DNA of 64,000 nucleotides from Patulibacter minatonensis DSM 18081 (lineage in GTDB: Bacteria > Actinomycetota > Thermoleophilia > Solirubrobacterales > Solirubrobacteraceae): contig NZ_KI912613.1 in the NCBI RefSeq assembly GCF_000519325.1, positions 2,341,280-2,405,279 of the forward strand, in the 5' to 3' direction. The notes under the pieces are model-generated. The model was not told the origin of the DNA. It was given only the letters and a program-made list of their open reading frames with translations, and did no database searches. Made by a program: the position numbers and the translations under genes. Positions 33,493 through 39,903 of the stretch are shown here, in pieces (the stretch's first letter is position 1; the number at the start of each line of letters is the position of its first letter).

Positions 33493-34437
33493 CTACCGCG
33501 CGTAGTGCGCCGTGATCCCGGCGTCGGCCTGGGCATCCTCGAGGTACTGCCTCGGCCAGCCCATCTCGACGTGCCCGATGCCGTCGACGCCGTCGATCGT
33601 GGCGACCATGGCGACCTCGTGCATCGTGCAGTTCGCGCTCACCGGGAAGACGAAGTTCGAGTGTCCTCGGTAGGTCATCGCGGTCCGGCGGCCCGCGTCG
33701 TCGATCAGGACGCCCCGGTACTCGGAGTGCATGATCCGCGGGTCCAGGTCGTAGGCGTCGTCCTCGAGACCCACGACCTCGGCGATCACGCCGTCCTTGT
33801 GGACGTACCCGAGGACCTCGCGCTTGCCGAGCCCGAAGGTCTCGATCGCGTGCACGGCGGTGCCGTCCGGCGTCTGCGCCCAGATCCACTTCCAGTGCTG
33901 GATCGCGCCCCAGTTGCGGGTGCCCCAGGAGTGGTCGCGGTGCCCGGTCTGCTCGAACGGGATCTCGCGGTCGCCGATCCGGAGCACGCCCTTCACCCAC
34001 CCGGACTGCTCGAACCGGTCGTCGGCGAGGTACCACGGGCAGCCGCCCGGCGCCTGGCCGTAGTTGTACGCCTCGTGCATGCCCTCGAACGTGTAGGAGA
34101 CGGACGCGGCCTCGCCGGCGAAGTCGATCGACGCCTCGACCAGCGGCTTGCCGTGGCGGACCGTGATCGCCCCGACCTGCCACGCGTCGAAGCCCATGTC
34201 CCGCGGCACGTCGATGCCGTCGACGACCTCGAAGATCGGGTCGCCGCCGACGCCGGGGCCGAAGACCGCCAGCGCGCTCCCGGCCTGCGAGGCGTCGTTC
34301 ACCCACGTGTAGGCGATGAAGGCGACCTCGGCCTCGGGGATCCCGACGACGAACGCGAGCGACTCGCGCGCGTCGGGCTTGTGCTCGAGCGGGTGCCGGG
34401 CGTCGTCCGCCGGGTCCATCGCGACGACGGGGCTCAC
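33493..34437 (-). CDS. AttH/CrtC-like lipocalin-fold protein (DUF7064/7065 type)
   Basis: 314 aa, GTG overlapping the stop of the upstream gene (GTGA). Key wording: GHRDHSWGTRNWGAIQHWKW near residues 165-185, LVEASIDFAGEAASVSYTFE, YRGHSNFVFPVSANCTMHE. The H-R-D-H-S-W-G motif marks a family distantly related to hydroxyneurosporene synthase (CrtC) and AttH, with two lipocalin-like barrels that bind hydrophobic substrates. Third gene of the swivel-domain operon. It probably handles a lipid, terpenoid or carotenoid-like compound; the reaction is not known. Confidence 0.7.
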   Translation of the reverse strand: MSPVVAMDPADDARHPLEHKPDARESLAFVVGIPEAEVAFIAYTWVNDASQAGSALAVFGPGVGGDPIFEVVDGIDVPRDMGFDAWQVGAITVRHGKPLVEASIDFAGEAASVSYTFEGMHEAYNYGQAPGGCPWYLADDRFEQSGWVKGVLRIGDREIPFEQTGHRDHSWGTRNWGAIQHWKWIWAQTPDGTAVHAIETFGLGKREVLGYVHKDGVIAEVVGLEDDAYDLDPRIMHSEYRGVLIDDAGRRTAMTYRGHSNFVFPVSANCTMHEVAMVATIDGVDGIGHVEMGWPRQYLEDAQADAGITAHYAR

Positions 34438-35759
34438 GACGACACCTTCGAGAGCAGCGGGAAGCCCTCACCGAGGAGGAACACGGGCGGCAGGACCTCT
34501 GCCGCGCCGCCGCCACAGAGGGTCGGCCACGCCTGCAGGGTCAGCTCGGACAGCTCGTCGACCTGGGGCTTGACGTCGTCCCAGACTCCGGCGCGCTGGG
34601 CGATCGGCATGATCATCTCGTAGGCGTAGACCTGCACGCCGTCCTTGATCTTCTGGTCGCGGTCCTTGTCCGCGATCGTCTGGTAGAGCGACAGCATCGT
34701 CGTCGAGCACTGCTTCGCGATCGCGAGCTGCTCGTCGGGACCGAGGCGACGCAGGCCCTCCATCGGCGTCTCCTGCTCGTCACGGGCGTAGACGGCGACC
34801 GCGTCCAGGTGCTTGAGGTAGTCGGCCGGCTTCGTGAACGTCGTGGAGATGTCGTTGATCGTGACCTCGAGCGGGTCGGTGCCCGGCTTGAAGGACAGGA
34901 TCTCCGTGACCGCGTAGGGCAGGCCCTCGGCGCATGCACCCCACTCGTACGCGCGCTCGTGGAGGATGTGGTCGCGGACGATGATGAACCCGCCGTCCTC
35001 CTGGGGGTAGGGGCCCGTGTCGCACATCGCGGCGCGGTTGTCGTAGTGCAGGAGGAAGCCGAACAGCTCGGTCGCCCCGTTGAAGCGGCGGAACGCCTTG
35101 CGGACGTCGGGGTCCGCGAGCGGGTCGAGGTCGACCGCCAAGCGTGCGAGCACGTCGGCGTCGAGCGCCGGGCTGACGAACCCGCGGCCGGACACGAAGC
35201 CGCACCCCTCGCCCCACGTCCCGAACTGCAGGCGGCGGGCGAACTTGATGACCTCCTCGAGGTCCTCGCGGCGCGCGCCCGGCTCCTCCAGGCCCAGCTT
35301 CGCCACGATGCCGCGGCCGAGCATCGCGACCATCGGCGTCGCCCAGTTCCGGGTGACGTTGAGCTTCGTGCCGACCTCGCGGTGCGCGGTGCGGCCGAGC
35401 TCGATCACGCCGTCGACGCCGATCGCCTCGGTGATCGTGCGCATGATCCGCGGGTAGACCGACCAGTGCTGCACGAACGCGCAGGTCTCGTACTCCTGGC
35501 GCGGGATCAGGCCCGACTCGCCCTCGGTCGAGCGGTTGGCGATCAGCTCCCAGAGGTTCCAGGCGGCGTACTGCTGCCACCCGTCGATCTGCTCGTCGGT
35601 CAGGGAGTCCAGGCGGACGTCCTCCGCCGTGATGTCCATGAACGGCGTCGTGATCCGCTCCCGGATCTTCCGGTCGCCCGCGGCCCCGCCGGGGACCTCG
35701 GCCAGGTACTGCTCGAGGAACGGCTGGAACGCCGCGGCTGCGTCTTCGGCCTCGCCCAT
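34434..35759 (-). CDS. Unrecognised 441-aa protein in a phosphohistidine-swivel operon
   Basis: 441 aa, mostly helical, no signal or membrane segment. Distinctive stretches: YAAWNLWELIANRSTEGE, HWSVYPRIMRTITEAIGVDG, HREVGTKLNVTRNWATPMVA, RLQFGTWGEGCGFVSGRGF, HYDNRAAMCDTGPYPQEDGG, YEWGACAEGLPYAVTEILSF. Conserved-looking Trp, His, Cys and Arg suggest an enzyme or substrate-binding subunit. It starts 6 nt after the swivel-domain gene and overlaps the next gene by 4 nt, so the three products should be made together. In dikinase-type phosphotransferases such as rifampicin phosphotransferase, a helical substrate domain works with the swivel; this may be its separate equivalent (inference). Confidence 0.75.
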   Translation of the reverse strand: MGEAEDAAAAFQPFLEQYLAEVPGGAAGDRKIRERITTPFMDITAEDVRLDSLTDEQIDGWQQYAAWNLWELIANRSTEGESGLIPRQEYETCAFVQHWSVYPRIMRTITEAIGVDGVIELGRTAHREVGTKLNVTRNWATPMVAMLGRGIVAKLGLEEPGARREDLEEVIKFARRLQFGTWGEGCGFVSGRGFVSPALDADVLARLAVDLDPLADPDVRKAFRRFNGATELFGFLLHYDNRAAMCDTGPYPQEDGGFIIVRDHILHERAYEWGACAEGLPYAVTEILSFKPGTDPLEVTINDISTTFTKPADYLKHLDAVAVYARDEQETPMEGLRRLGPDEQLAIAKQCSTTMLSLYQTIADKDRDQKIKDGVQVYAYEMIMPIAQRAGVWDDVKPQVDELSELTLQAWPTLCGGGAAEVLPPVFLLGEGFPLLSKVSS

Positions 35760-35764
35760 GGCGA

Positions 35765-36169
35765 TCAGCCCTCCTTGACGTAGACGTCGGCGTTCGGGGT
35801 CGTGGTCGACTCCAGGCGGACGATCGACCCGTCGGCCGGGACGGTCTCGCCGGTCGGGAGCTCGACGCCCTCGGTGAACGCGACCGACATGACGCAGGGG
35901 ATGCCGAACTCGCGCGAGACGATCCCGAGGTGGCTCTGCGGGCCGCCCTGCAGCGTGATCAGGCCCAGCGCGCCGCTCGAGAGCGCCGGCGCCATGAACG
36001 TCGTGGTCCCGCCGCGCGAGAGCACGATCGTCTCCTCGACGTCGTCGCCGTTGACGAAGTCGATGACGTCCTGCGGCGTCTCGAGCCACTTCAGCGGTCC
36101 CTCGACCGGCTCGGCCTCGAACACGTTCTGGCCCGTGCCGACCTTCCGGTACCCGTCCAACTGCCCCAT
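35765..36169 (-). CDS. Stand-alone PEP-utilising-enzyme swivel (phosphohistidine) domain
   Basis: 134 aa. The core GLITLQGGPQSHLGIVSREF and GIPCVM corresponds to G-G-x-x-S-H-x-x-I-V-x-R-E-x-G-I-P in PPDK, PEP synthase and enzyme I, so the catalytic His is present (about residue 85). VVLSRGGTTTFMAPALSSG precedes it. ATP-grasp and PEP-binding domains are both absent: this is a free phosphocarrier domain that needs separate partners, probably the 441-aa protein downstream and an ATP-grasp protein such as that at 38350. First gene of its operon. Confidence 0.82.
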   Translation of the reverse strand: MGQLDGYRKVGTGQNVFEAEPVEGPLKWLETPQDVIDFVNGDDVEETIVLSRGGTTTFMAPALSSGALGLITLQGGPQSHLGIVSREFGIPCVMSVAFTEGVELPTGETVPADGSIVRLESTTTPNADVYVKEG

Positions 36170-36186
36170 GCTGACTCCTCGGTCTC

Positions 36187-36203
36187 CGGACCCGGTGCGG
36201 GTC
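36187..36203. promoter_or_regulatory. Palindrome upstream of the swivel operon
   Basis: GGACCCG-GTG-CGGGTCC, 7-bp arms, 18 bp before the swivel-domain start. A related GGTCC-C-GGACC sits at about 37744, upstream of the facing operon; both could be PucR sites. The rest of 36204-36354 shows nothing clear. Confidence 0.35.
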
Positions 36204-36354
36204 CGCTGTGCCGATCCTCCGAGCCGGAGGGTGCGCGCAGCTACAAGCCGGGGGACAACGATCGTCGGACCCGGCTGCCGCTCCCGCCAACCGCGCCTTC
36301 CTCCCGCCGCCCGGAACGCGACCGATCGGACGTCGCGGATAAGGGGTGTGCTCC

Positions 36355-37614
36355 TCAGGTGCAGTCGAGGGTGCGGTCGATCAGGAGCGCGGCCTCGAGC
36401 TCGCCGCAGTCGTCCGGCAGCGGGCCACCCAGGAGCGTCTCGACCCGGACCAGCCGGTACGCGACGGTCTTCTGGTGCACGTGGAGCACCTCGCCGGTCC
36501 GGGCCTTGTTGCGCCCGCAGGCGAGGTAGGTCCGGAGCGTCTCGCGCAGACGGTCGGTCGCCTCCTCCCGGACGGCCAGCGCGCCGAGGCGGGCCTCGGC
36601 CAGCCGCCGCGCCCGGGTCGGGTCGGCGCACAGCAGGCCGGCGAGCTCGACGCGGCGGTGCGGGTGCACGTGGCCGGCCGACCCCGCCCCGGCGCGCGCG
36701 TACCGCTCGGCGTCCCGGGCCTGCTCGTGGGTCAGGCGGAACCCGGCGGGGCCGCGCCCGTCGTCGCCGACCCCGACCCGGAGCCCGTCGACGGTCAGCG
36801 CCGCGAGCGCATCGACCTGCTCCAGCGTGAACGGGGCCGGGGCGCCGAGCCACGCCCAGGTCGATCCCGGGACGATCGTCTGCGTGAGGACCGCCGTCGC
36901 ACCGGCCGCGGTCGCGAGCCGCTCGATCGCGGCGCGCGGGTCCGCCCCGTGGTCCAGCAGGGTGACGACGACGCCGAGGTGGTGCAAGCGCACGTCGTAG
37001 CCCAGCGAGAGGCTGGCGGCGTCGACGTCGGGGTCGTCCCCGGTGAGGAGGTCGTCGAGGGCCTGCCGTCGCGACGTGCCGCCCCGCACCCCGCCGTCGG
37101 GGTACTCCTGCCGGTACCGCTCGGCCATCTGCTCCGAGACCCCGTCGAAGTACGTGAACAGGCGCTCCGACGAGTACCGCACGACCTCGTGGCGCTCCCG
37201 GTCGCCGAGCTCCGCGTCGCCGAGATGCTCGAGCCACAGCGCCGACACCGCGCGGTGGCCCATGCGGAACCCGCGGAGCATCGTCACGAGGTCGCCGCCG
37301 CCCGCGACCGCCTGGCGGATCACCTTGATCGTGCCCACCGGGGGCTCCGCGGCCCCGGGCACCACGCCGAACGCCAGCATCGACAGGATCGCCCCGACGT
37401 TCTGCTCGGTGCTCTCGCGGATCGCGACGAGCTCCTCGTCGGACCCGGACGGCGCGAGCTCGGGCACCGCGGTGACGACGTCGTCGACGACGCGGTCGGC
37501 CAGCTCCCCGATCCGCGGCAGGAGGTCGCGCGCGAGGCGCTGCACGAGCTCGGGGACGTCGAGCTCGGCGGTCCCGGACGCCCCCGGGCCTTGTCCCTCG
37601 GAGCGCACGGTCAT
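36355..37614 (-). CDS. PucR-family transcriptional regulator
   Basis: 419 aa. N-terminal helical sensor region (ELVQRLARDLLPRIGELADR; ESTEQNVGAILSMLAFGV), a middle GGDEF-like/CdaR domain, and the C-terminal PucR helix-turn-helix: LRTYLACGRNKARTGEVL then HVHQKTVAYRLVRVE. PucR proteins act as activators or repressors of catabolic genes next to them. Placed between the swivel operon and the divergent PPDK-like operon, it probably controls both. TATCGT (37628-37623) lies 8 nt before the ATG. Confidence 0.87.
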   Translation of the reverse strand: MTVRSEGQGPGASGTAELDVPELVQRLARDLLPRIGELADRVVDDVVTAVPELAPSGSDEELVAIRESTEQNVGAILSMLAFGVVPGAAEPPVGTIKVIRQAVAGGGDLVTMLRGFRMGHRAVSALWLEHLGDAELGDRERHEVVRYSSERLFTYFDGVSEQMAERYRQEYPDGGVRGGTSRRQALDDLLTGDDPDVDAASLSLGYDVRLHHLGVVVTLLDHGADPRAAIERLATAAGATAVLTQTIVPGSTWAWLGAPAPFTLEQVDALAALTVDGLRVGVGDDGRGPAGFRLTHEQARDAERYARAGAGSAGHVHPHRRVELAGLLCADPTRARRLAEARLGALAVREEATDRLRETLRTYLACGRNKARTGEVLHVHQKTVAYRLVRVETLLGGPLPDDCGELEAALLIDRTLDCT

Positions 37615-37777
37615 GGCATCCGACGATAAACCGGGGTGACGGGCTGCAGGGAGAACGTTCGGGCTGGGCGGTTCCGGACAGGACGGTCGCGGCCGGGTTG
37701 TCGGCCGCGCCGTAGCCGCGGGGTGCGCGAGCGAAGACGGTGGGTCCCGGACCACCGGCACCACAGAGAGCGAGACC

Positions 37778-38350
37778 ATGAACGCCCCCGATCCCGCCGC
37801 CCAGCGCGGCCTCGACGACCCGACGACGAGCGTGCTCCACATGCTCGCGCTGCGCGGGTCCGCCCCCGACGTCGGGGAGGACGCCGACGCGCTCGTCGAC
37901 CGCGGGCTCGTGGTCCGGACGAAGGCCGGGTGGATGCTGACGCCCGACGGGCACGCCCGCCACGACGAGCAGCTCGCCGCCGAGCGCGGGACGCTCGACC
38001 GGGAGGCGTTGAAGCCGATCTACGAGCGCTTCCTCGCCGCCAACACCCCGCTGAAGGCGCTGTCGTCGCGGTGGCAGACCGCGGGGGAGGACGAGCGCTT
38101 CGCGCTCCTCGCAGACCTCGCGGACATCGTCGAGCGCGTCGACCCGGTGCTGCGCCGGACCGCCGCGATCCTCCCGCGCTTCGCCGCCTACCGGCCGCGC
38201 CTGTCCGAGGCCCTCGGGCGTGCGGAGGACGGCGACCTCGACTACGTCGTCAGCCCGCGAGTCGACTCGGTGCACACGATCTGGATGGAGTGCCACGAGG
38301 ACTACCTGCAGACGCAGGGGATCTCCCGCGAGGAGGAGGGGAGCTACTGA
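37778..38350 (+). CDS. Small winged-helix-like protein coupled to the PPDK-like gene
   Basis: 190 aa. Residues ~15-65 look like a winged helix (SVLHMLALRGSAPDVGEDAD, DRGLVVRTKAGWMLTPDGHA). About 75-190 is a helical domain (LKPIYERFLAANTPLKALSS, FALLADLADIVERVDPVLRR, SVHTIWMECHEDYLQTQG). Similar small proteins precede truncated PPDKs in actinobacteria. Its stop overlaps the ATG of the next gene, so they are translationally coupled. It may be a regulatory or substrate-binding subunit rather than a DNA-binding protein; not resolved. Confidence 0.7.
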   Translation: MNAPDPAAQRGLDDPTTSVLHMLALRGSAPDVGEDADALVDRGLVVRTKAGWMLTPDGHARHDEQLAAERGTLDREALKPIYERFLAANTPLKALSSRWQTAGEDERFALLADLADIVERVDPVLRRTAAILPRFAAYRPRLSEALGRAEDGDLDYVVSPRVDSVHTIWMECHEDYLQTQGISREEEGSY

Positions 38351-39903
38351 TGCCCGCCACCGGGACGGTCTGGACCCACGACATCGCCGACCCCGGGACG
38401 ACGGACCGCGCGATCCTCGGCGGCAAGGGCGCCGGTCTGGCGGAGATGGTGGCGCTCGGGCTGCCGGTGCCGCCGGCGTTCGTCATCGGGACGCCGTGCG
38501 GCCGGGAACACCGGGCGACCGGGGCGCTGCCGGCGTCCCTGCGGGCCGAGGTCGACGCGCGCATCGCGGCGCTCGAAGCCGCGGCCGGCCGCCGCTTCGG
38601 AGACGACGCCGACCCGCTGCTCGTCTCGGTGCGCTCCGGCGCCCCGGTGTCGATGCCGGGGATGATGGACACGATCCTGAACGTCGGCCTGACCCGGGCC
38701 GCGGCCGCGCAGATGTCGGACGCGCGGTTCGCGACCTCGTCGCTGGAGCGGCTCCTGGACGGCTTCGCCCGCACCGTCCGCGGGATCGGCTCCGGGATCG
38801 TCGAGGACGCGCTGCTCGACCTGCCGCCGGGCGCCGGCGCGCAGGAGCGCTGCGACACCCTGCTCGGGCTGATCGAGCAGGAGTCCGGTGCGCCGTTCCC
38901 CGACGCCCGGGGACAGCTGACCGAGGCGATCGCCGCCGTCTTCTCGTCGTGGGACAGTCGGCGTGCCAAGGCGTACCGCCGGCACAAGGGGATCGACGAC
39001 GAGCTGGGCACCGCCGTCGTCGTGCAGCTCATGGTCTTCGGCAACCGCGACGACCGGTCGGGCTCGGGCGTCGGCTTCACCCGCGACCCGTCCACCGGTG
39101 CGGCCGGCGCGTTCGGCGACTTCCTCTTTCGCGCCCAGGGCGAGGACGTCGTCTCCGGCGAGCACGACACCGAGCCGCTGACGGTGATCGGCGAGCGCCT
39201 GCCCGACGTGCACGCGCAGCTGCTCGACGTCTTCGCGTTGCTCGAGCAGGACGCCCGCGACCTCTGCGACGTCGAGTTCACGATCGAGTCCGGGCGTCTC
39301 CACGTGCTGCAGACCCGCGTGGGGCAGCGCTCCGGGCGTGCCGCGGTGCGCCTGGCCGTCGAGCTGTGCGACGCCGGGCTGATCGACCGCGCCGAGGCCA
39401 TCGGCCGGGTCGACGACGAGCAGCTCGCCGCCGCCCGCGCCCCGGTCTTCGCGGACGAGCACCCCGAGGACGTCGTCCTCGCCCGCGGCCTGGCGGCGTC
39501 GCCGGGGGCCGTCGTCGGCCTGGCGGCCTTCGACGCCGGCCGAGCCCAGGCGCTCGGCGACGAGGGTCACGACGTGATCCTCGTCCGTCCGACGACGTCG
39601 CCCGTCGACCTGCCCGGCGTGATCGCGTCGGTCGGCGTCGTCACCGGCCGGGGCGGGCGGACCTCGCACGCCGCGGTCGTCGCGCGCGGGATGGGCCGCG
39701 CGGCGGTGTGCGGGGTCGGCGAGGTCCGCGTCGCCGCCGACGGCCGGTCCGCGGAGGTCGAGGGCGTCCCGGTGACCGAGGGCGACGTCCTGTCGGTCGA
39801 CGGCGATCGCGGCGTCGTCGCCCGCGGCGCGGCGCCCCGGACGCCCGCGGAGGAGGACGAGACGCTGCGGCGCTTCATGGAGTGGCGGGCCGAGGCGGGG
39901 TAG
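38350..39903 (+). CDS. Truncated pyruvate phosphate dikinase (ATP-grasp plus swivel domains only)
   Basis: 517 aa versus about 880 for PPDK. ATP-grasp: ILGGKGAGLAEMVALGLPVP, SVRSGAPVSMPGMMDTILNV, QLMVFGNRDDRSGSGVGFTR, FRAQGEDVVSG, DVEFTIESGRLHVLQTR. Swivel: ASPGAVVG and VVTGRGGRTSHAAVVARGMG with the phosphorylatable His. The C-terminal PEP/pyruvate barrel is absent and the chain ends in a short charged tail, so it cannot complete the PPDK reaction alone. It could phosphorylate its own His from ATP (and phosphate) and pass phosphate to a separate acceptor subunit, possibly the free swivel domain across the divergent promoter. Confidence 0.85.
   Translation: MPATGTVWTHDIADPGTTDRAILGGKGAGLAEMVALGLPVPPAFVIGTPCGREHRATGALPASLRAEVDARIAALEAAAGRRFGDDADPLLVSVRSGAPVSMPGMMDTILNVGLTRAAAAQMSDARFATSSLERLLDGFARTVRGIGSGIVEDALLDLPPGAGAQERCDTLLGLIEQESGAPFPDARGQLTEAIAAVFSSWDSRRAKAYRRHKGIDDELGTAVVVQLMVFGNRDDRSGSGVGFTRDPSTGAAGAFGDFLFRAQGEDVVSGEHDTEPLTVIGERLPDVHAQLLDVFALLEQDARDLCDVEFTIESGRLHVLQTRVGQRSGRAAVRLAVELCDAGLIDRAEAIGRVDDEQLAAARAPVFADEHPEDVVLARGLAASPGAVVGLAAFDAGRAQALGDEGHDVILVRPTTSPVDLPGVIASVGVVTGRGGRTSHAAVVARGMGRAAVCGVGEVRVAADGRSAEVEGVPVTEGDVLSVDGDRGVVARGAAPRTPAEEDETLRRFMEWRAEAG

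Follow-up and report, generated by a model that had tools for sequence, protein, structure and literature searches.

Organization of the locus

The genes described here lie in a 64,000-nt stretch of the genome of Patulibacter minatonensis DSM 18081 (the window, within which all positions are counted), and they quite probably encode a small-molecule phosphotransferase distributed over several chains. Two divergent operons carry them. The minus-strand group, headed by a PucR-type regulator gene, encodes a free-standing phosphohistidine swivel domain (SWIV), a 441-aa protein (SUB441) and a DUF7064 protein (LIPO), while the plus-strand pair encodes a 190-aa protein (WH190) and a short relative of pyruvate phosphate dikinase (PPDK). 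The positions of the genes and of their main features are as follows.

35765..36169, minus strand: SWIV, free-standing phosphohistidine swivel, 134 aa (Pfam PEP-utilizers, E = 3.2e-11)
35930-35932, minus strand: predicted phosphocarrier His80 of SWIV, motif GGPQSHLGIVSREF
34434..35759, minus strand: SUB441, 441-aa protein of an unnamed family, predicted substrate-holding chain
33493..34437, minus strand: LIPO, DUF7064/DUF7065 AttH/CrtC-like protein (Pfam DUF7064, E = 7.8e-15)
33922-33936, minus strand: DHSWG motif of LIPO
36355..37614, minus strand: PucR-type regulator (Pfam HTH_30 and GGDEF_2), possible regulator of both operons
37615..37777, no strand: divergent intergenic region of 163 nt between the PucR and WH190 genes
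37778..38350, plus strand: WH190, 190-aa protein, Rv1126c-type partner of the short PPDK
38350..39903, plus strand: short PPDK, 517 aa, PPDK_N and PEP-utilizers domains, without the phosphoenolpyruvate (PEP)/pyruvate barrel
39667-39669, plus strand: predicted phosphocarrier His440 of the short PPDK

An original prediction, made from the nucleotide sequence alone, had proposed a split dikinase-type phosphotransferase system with a lipocalin-fold partner at this locus. All the genes it named were found where it had placed them, and the 4-nt overlap that it gave for the minus operon was confirmed between the SUB441 and DUF7064 genes. The spacing between the swivel and SUB441 genes was 5 nt and not 6 nt (the swivel TGA ends at 35765 and the SUB441 ATG starts at 35759), and the operons, which it had called facing, are divergent. 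The WH190 and PPDK genes overlap by 1 nt. The gap at 37615-37777 is the divergent control region, and it contains an 8-nt perfect inverted repeat, CGCGGCCG/CGGCCGCG, with a 6-nt spacer (37688-37709). This repeat is a weak candidate operator that could be a PucR site or a chance occurrence in G+C-rich DNA. No sigma-70-like promoter was found by the promoter scan, and the terminator scan likewise gave nothing. PucR-type genes were found repeatedly near homologous clusters.

Co-occurrence and fusion of the chains

Scanning genomes with the 441-aa sequence by itself found no relatives. When the profile of alignment A1 was used, 74 named SUB441 loci were recovered, mostly in Actinomycetota, and also in Alpha- and Betaproteobacteria and in single metagenome-assembled genomes of other phyla. 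Before this, relatives of SUB441 had come to light within the same taxonomic order and on plasmids from Rhodococcus, Paraburkholderia, Novosphingobium and Methylibium. When all six window proteins were profiled, a recurrent set emerged, DUF7064 - swivel - 441-aa - 190-aa - PPDK. In very G+C-rich loci the neighbours were profiled with domain profiles in place of gene calls, and antisense shadow-frame clusters were left out.

Co-occurrence was counted around the 53 SUB441 loci having more than 4 kb of flank on both sides, which were not all independent, as several contigs gave two. The swivel was present in 51, a PPDK-type chain within 10 kb in 42, WH190 in 39 and DUF7064 in 33. The P. minatonensis genome has only three PPDK_N genes, one of them at each of its two SUB441 genes, so that chance would be expected to place a PPDK gene near about 1% of such loci. 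The association is not accidental, since these chains are found together again in several phyla. Among 396 genomes sampled separately from the phylum, WH190 was present in all six genomes with SUB441 and in 32 genomes overall.

A single polypeptide combines the swivel, SUB441 and WH190 domains at 13 of the 74 named loci, and likewise in a paralogue from the P. minatonensis genome itself (L039). The fusion order was swivel - 441-aa - 190-aa, with a PPDK gene nearby in most; examples are from Paraconexibacter, Gordonia, Brevibacterium and Curtobacterium. Natural fusions of this kind argue strongly for joint action of the chains. Several loci had two or three SUB441 genes but a single pair of WH190 and PPDK genes, as if one predicted donor would serve several acceptors. 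The DUF7064 gene directly followed the SUB441 gene in nine cases, as in the window. The idea of a split dikinase-type system is supported by these results, as the fusions join three of the chains and the set recurs across genomes. Co-occurrence of SUB441 and the swivel with the truncated PPDK and the DUF7064 protein outside this genome, the lack of which had been set beforehand as a refutation, was found.

Correlation of pairwise distances gave r values of 0.93 for SUB441 and SWIV, 0.92 for SUB441 and LIPO, and 0.92 for WH190 and PPDK, compared with 0.66-0.76 for pairs across these groups. The two groups, an acceptor module (swivel, SUB441 and DUF7064 protein) and a donor module (WH190 and short PPDK), are exactly the two operons of the window. 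The lipocalin-fold protein proposed as a partner thus goes with the acceptor module.

The proposed donor module

The short PPDK scored 477.6 bits against NCBIfam NF004531, over the curated cut-off of 456, and is a member of the short-PPDK/VadK family. It aligned only to residues 4-528 of Clostridium PPDK (E = 2.5e-110), indicating that the PEP/pyruvate barrel is missing from the window chain. The swivel His was kept in 67 of 68 donor chains, and the ATP-grasp residues K26, R95, E309, Q321 and R323 were nearly invariant. The original prediction had placed the ATP-grasp, the swivel and a possible substrate domain on separate chains. These three are indeed separate, but the ATP-grasp chain keeps a conserved swivel His of its own, so the system has two swivels.

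In one large clade the PPDK carries about 310 extra residues. These C-terminal residues matched the PPDK barrel (E = 1.9e-12). The barrel is known from PPDK biochemistry to use a catalytic Cys and an Asn-Asp motif, and in alignment A6 the aligned catalytic stretches were not kept. A working PPDK barrel in the longer relatives was therefore rejected. The alignments read as if the donor descends from a PPDK in which the pyruvate site decayed before it disappeared.

WH190 had no significant Pfam match. Its C-terminal part has a conserved SxHxxWxExHED motif (alignment of 37) and is predicted as a helix bundle, as seen in the WH190 part of the AlphaFold2 model of the fused paralogue, while the N-terminal part is perhaps a winged helix. 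The small winged-helix-like protein of the original prediction is present and overlaps the PPDK gene; it can now be described as a recurrent partner belonging to the Rv1126c family. Six loci (L144, L145, L146, L151, L164 and L166) carried WH190 family genes and, to a distance of about 9 kb, no recognised short PPDK.

The proposed acceptor module

The swivel His of SWIV was kept in all 88 of 88 acceptor homologues. In the AlphaFold2 model of the fused paralogue (pLDDT 85.2), the swivel matched that of rifampin phosphotransferase (RPH) with Z 13.6 and that of PPDK with Z of about 10-11. The window swivel also matched NCBIfam PRK05865. A separate observation was made in another genome (G347), where an 852-aa protein with epimerase and swivel parts but no ATP-grasp is encoded at L209:837-3392 on the minus strand and a VadK-type pair is present in the same genome. 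By its architecture we take this protein to be Rv2047c-like, and it could be a VadK acceptor; PRK05865 is a family of that kind. The middle part of the Rv2047c-like protein was also considered as a relative of SUB441 and was found to be unrelated.

SUB441 had no Pfam or NCBIfam match, and its matches to PDB sequences were at chance level only. Membership in a known family of unrelated function had been named as a second ground for refutation, and no such family was found in Pfam, NCBIfam or the PDB. The AlphaFold2 model of SUB441 had a mean pLDDT of 92.8 and was predicted to be alpha+beta and not purely helical, which corrects the earlier description of a helical protein. Foldseek gave no PDB match at E<=0.001 for this model (best probability 0.11 among the matches listed), and VIA-align gave fragments only (Z <=3.2 among the matches listed). 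RPH was absent among the matches listed in these fold searches. The model is thus without a usable fold match, which is no proof of a new fold. The invariant residues in an alignment of 65 sequences include R76, E79, R87, K132, R176, D240, R242 and R262, as would be expected of a phosphate-handling site.

LIPO passed the gathering score of DUF7064 (PF23212) with 55.7 bits against 24.7. Its residues D168, H169, S170, W171, G172 and R174 were kept in 52-55 of 55 homologues. The likeness of LIPO to CrtC, a carotenoid hydratase, is taken as a lead only.

Genomic context and candidate substrates

In the clades near the window, genes for cytochrome P450, ferredoxin reductase, Zn-dependent alcohol dehydrogenase (ADH), aldehyde dehydrogenase (ALDH), CoA ligase, Y_phosphatase3 and crotonases were found nearby. 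A third clade had microcompartment shell genes, EutJ, ALDH, a malate-dehydrogenase-like protein and PucR. Y_phosphatase3 was present in 21 of the 74 named loci. On the plasmid of Methylibium petroleiphilum PM1, a PPDK of this type lies near Y_phosphatase3 and a Rieske oxygenase/reductase pair, which we take to be MdpJK, a tertiary-alcohol oxygenase. On the same plasmid the SUB441/SWIV/WH190/DUF7064 set adjoins B12-dependent mutase genes. Another PPDK of the family is found in a PM1 microcompartment cluster, and one PM1 PPDK gene stands directly 5' of a shell gene. The PM1 locus tags include MPE_RS22095 for SUB441 and MPE_RS23085 for a PPDK.

Two published observations bear on these contexts. 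Isomerisation of 2-methyl-3-buten-2-ol to prenol was proposed for PM1, with the enzyme uncharacterised in 2016 (PMC4791888). A report on Sterolibacterium describes ATP-dependent dehydration of a tertiary alcohol via a phosphate ester, and its authors suggest that tert-butanol could be handled likewise (PMC7411048). The original prediction had inferred ATP-driven activation of a hydrophobic alcohol, phenol or terpenoid; of these, the neighbouring genes favour an alcohol as part of a catabolic pathway. Because of the catabolic neighbours, the PM1 context and these precedents, we tentatively rank an aliphatic alcohol, often tertiary or terpenoid/isoprenoid, as the possible substrate ahead of a phenol or enol.

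Several further neighbourhoods were recorded. In Rhodococcus, Amycolatopsis and Methylibium (L034:16103-29332, L123:17557-20389 and L207:1-12592), the set or its PPDK stands beside genes for shell proteins, EutJ, ALDH, a malate-dehydrogenase-like protein and a HAD hydrolase. The Rhodococcus pyridinivorans P23 plasmid (L036:11549-24198) encodes three SUB441-like chains and a single donor pair, along with biotin carboxylase genes, and may possibly represent a phosphorylate-then-carboxylate variant. Two recurrent neighbour families were noted, one with a median of about 183 aa and no Pfam match (L060:8456-9115) and one with a median of about 305 aa and no NCBIfam match (L056:12647-13561). The neighbours in the window itself encode a Clp protease, TetR, an acyl-CoA dehydrogenase-like protein, TPR/DnaJ proteins and GDPD.

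Comparison with known systems

VadK (Rv1127c) of Mycobacterium tuberculosis autophosphorylates on its swivel His422 and was co-expressed with Rv1126c (PMC13400623). The window shares with this pair the short PPDK architecture (ATP-grasp and swivel, no PEP barrel) and the neighbour of the 190-aa family. The VadK motif GGAASHAAVVSREL was deduced from a primer in PMC13400623, and loci with this motif carry WH190 next door; the Rv1126c type was assigned via the WH190 family shared with the window. Unlike the window, the VadK-motif loci examined had no SUB441 relative and no separate swivel.

HpeHI is an example of a split dikinase able to phosphorylate small hydroxy compounds (PMC12167813). HpeHI, CreHI and PpsAB resemble the window system in having the ATP-grasp on its own chain, the substrate and swivel functions elsewhere and a catabolic context (PMC12167813). 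However, their ATP-grasp chain is PEP synthase-like and without a swivel, and their substrate domain and C-terminal swivel are on one chain, whereas the donor in the window resembles PPDK and carries a swivel itself, the acceptor swivel stands alone (or at the N terminus in fusions) and a 190-aa chain recurs; a weak profile comparison, described below, found no similarity to SUB441. Compared with PPDK (EC 2.7.9.1), the donor aligns over Clostridium PPDK 4-528 as described above, but the barrel is absent in the window and decayed in the longer relatives. RPH has a similar swivel fold and also transfers phosphate to a small molecule, but it has all three domains on one chain. The system therefore resembles HpeHI/CreHI/PpsAB and RPH in swivel phosphate transfer and is a member of none of those families. 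The chemistry would match the 25-hydroxysteroid dehydratase activity of Sterolibacterium denitrificans (phosphorylation, then elimination) if the substrate is a tertiary alcohol; the available part of that report names no gene for the activity (PMC7411048). The literature search found no described system of this make-up, with most subscription journals outside its coverage.

Proposed mechanism and alternative explanations

The likely explanation of the locus as a whole is one multi-chain dikinase in two co-varying modules. In the donor module, the ATP-grasp would move the beta-phosphate of ATP onto His440 of the short PPDK, and the phosphate would then pass to His80 of the small swivel. Such a relay is suggested because both swivel histidines are conserved, and a His-to-His phosphate relay has a precedent in the sugar phosphotransferase system. 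On balance we lean towards a route through both histidines; alternatively, the small swivel itself may visit the ATP-grasp. From the invariant residues and the gene context we infer that the small swivel docks on SUB441 and phosphorylates the hydroxyl of a bound hydrophobic small molecule, for which an aliphatic alcohol (tertiary or isoprenoid) at the entry of a catabolic pathway would be the most likely class. The DUF7064 protein may work on this substrate or on the phosphate ester formed from it, for instance by elimination or rearrangement, which is plausible because an alcohol becomes a good leaving group once phosphorylated. Both the DUF7064 chemistry and the substrate class are conjecture. 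The complete scheme, with four chains, a two-swivel relay to a tertiary or isoprenoid alcohol held on a protein of unseen fold, and an ester that the DUF7064 protein goes on to eliminate or rearrange, is doubtful in all its parts together.

A number of observations weigh against this proposal. Comparison of the SUB441 and WH190 families with the HpeH-like and RPH families by hhalign detected no relation, although this was a weak test in which the positive control matched only near the swivel; with no detectable relation to those substrate domains, the role of SUB441 as substrate site draws on its context. Most of the 32 WH190-bearing genomes among the 396 sampled were without SUB441, which means that the donor pair must also work with other partners. 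The P. minatonensis genome holds nine DUF7064 copies, which makes the nearness of this gene less telling than that of the other chains, and its single Y_phosphatase3 lies 2.5 Mb away. The window's own neighbours name no pathway. Species descent contributes to the distance correlations and some loci came from the same contigs, so the contrast within versus across modules is the telling part. In the Sterolibacterium report, the nucleotide product was mainly ADP and not AMP (PMC7411048), and the published role of VadK is that of a regulatory kinase for the methylcitrate cycle (PMC13400623).

The last point raises the question of whether the donor pair is a VadK-like regulatory protein-histidine kinase, with the swivel and SUB441 as its protein target or sensor and phosphate as the signal. 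In favour of this, the donor pair belongs to the VadK/Rv1126c type, for which interaction with methylcitrate-cycle enzymes was published, many WH190 loci are without SUB441, and a PucR regulator is adjacent. However, the clusters accompany catabolic gene sets and phosphatases, SUB441 has many invariant Arg, Lys and Asp residues like an active site, and duplicated acceptor chains share one donor pair, as for different substrates, which together make signalling a decidedly improbable function. Phosphorylation of a phenol or enol for carboxylation or ring catabolism, as by HpeHI on hydroxyphenylethanones, would suit the P23 plasmid with its biotin carboxylase genes, and HpeHI, CreHI and PpsAB all act on phenols. 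It is nevertheless unlikely here, as no carboxylase was found among the identified recurrent neighbours of the main clades, nor in the flanks of the window, and ADH, ALDH and P450 point to aliphatic alcohols. The two operons might also be independent, so that a VadK-like plus operon would lie by accident next to a minus operon of another kind. The separate divergent operons, the lower correlation across modules and the finding of WH190/PPDK without SUB441 are in line with independence, but elsewhere single operons and natural fusions combine members of both groups and the PPDK chain is near in 42 of the 53 loci, leaving accidental adjacency a very slight chance.

Significance

The proposed multi-chain dikinase brings to light an unnamed protein family without a matching solved fold and a dikinase architecture that has two swivels and, recurrently, an accessory chain. 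It also places VadK, which is virulence-associated, in a family where the remaining members seem to supply phosphate to separate metabolic acceptor chains. Should the substrate indeed be an alcohol, the clusters would provide candidate genes for a step in the breakdown of fuel oxygenates and terpenoids for which the literature consulted gave no enzymes, and may include enzymes for the dehydration or isomerisation of tertiary alcohols, such as the conversion of 2-methyl-3-buten-2-ol to prenol in Methylibium PM1.

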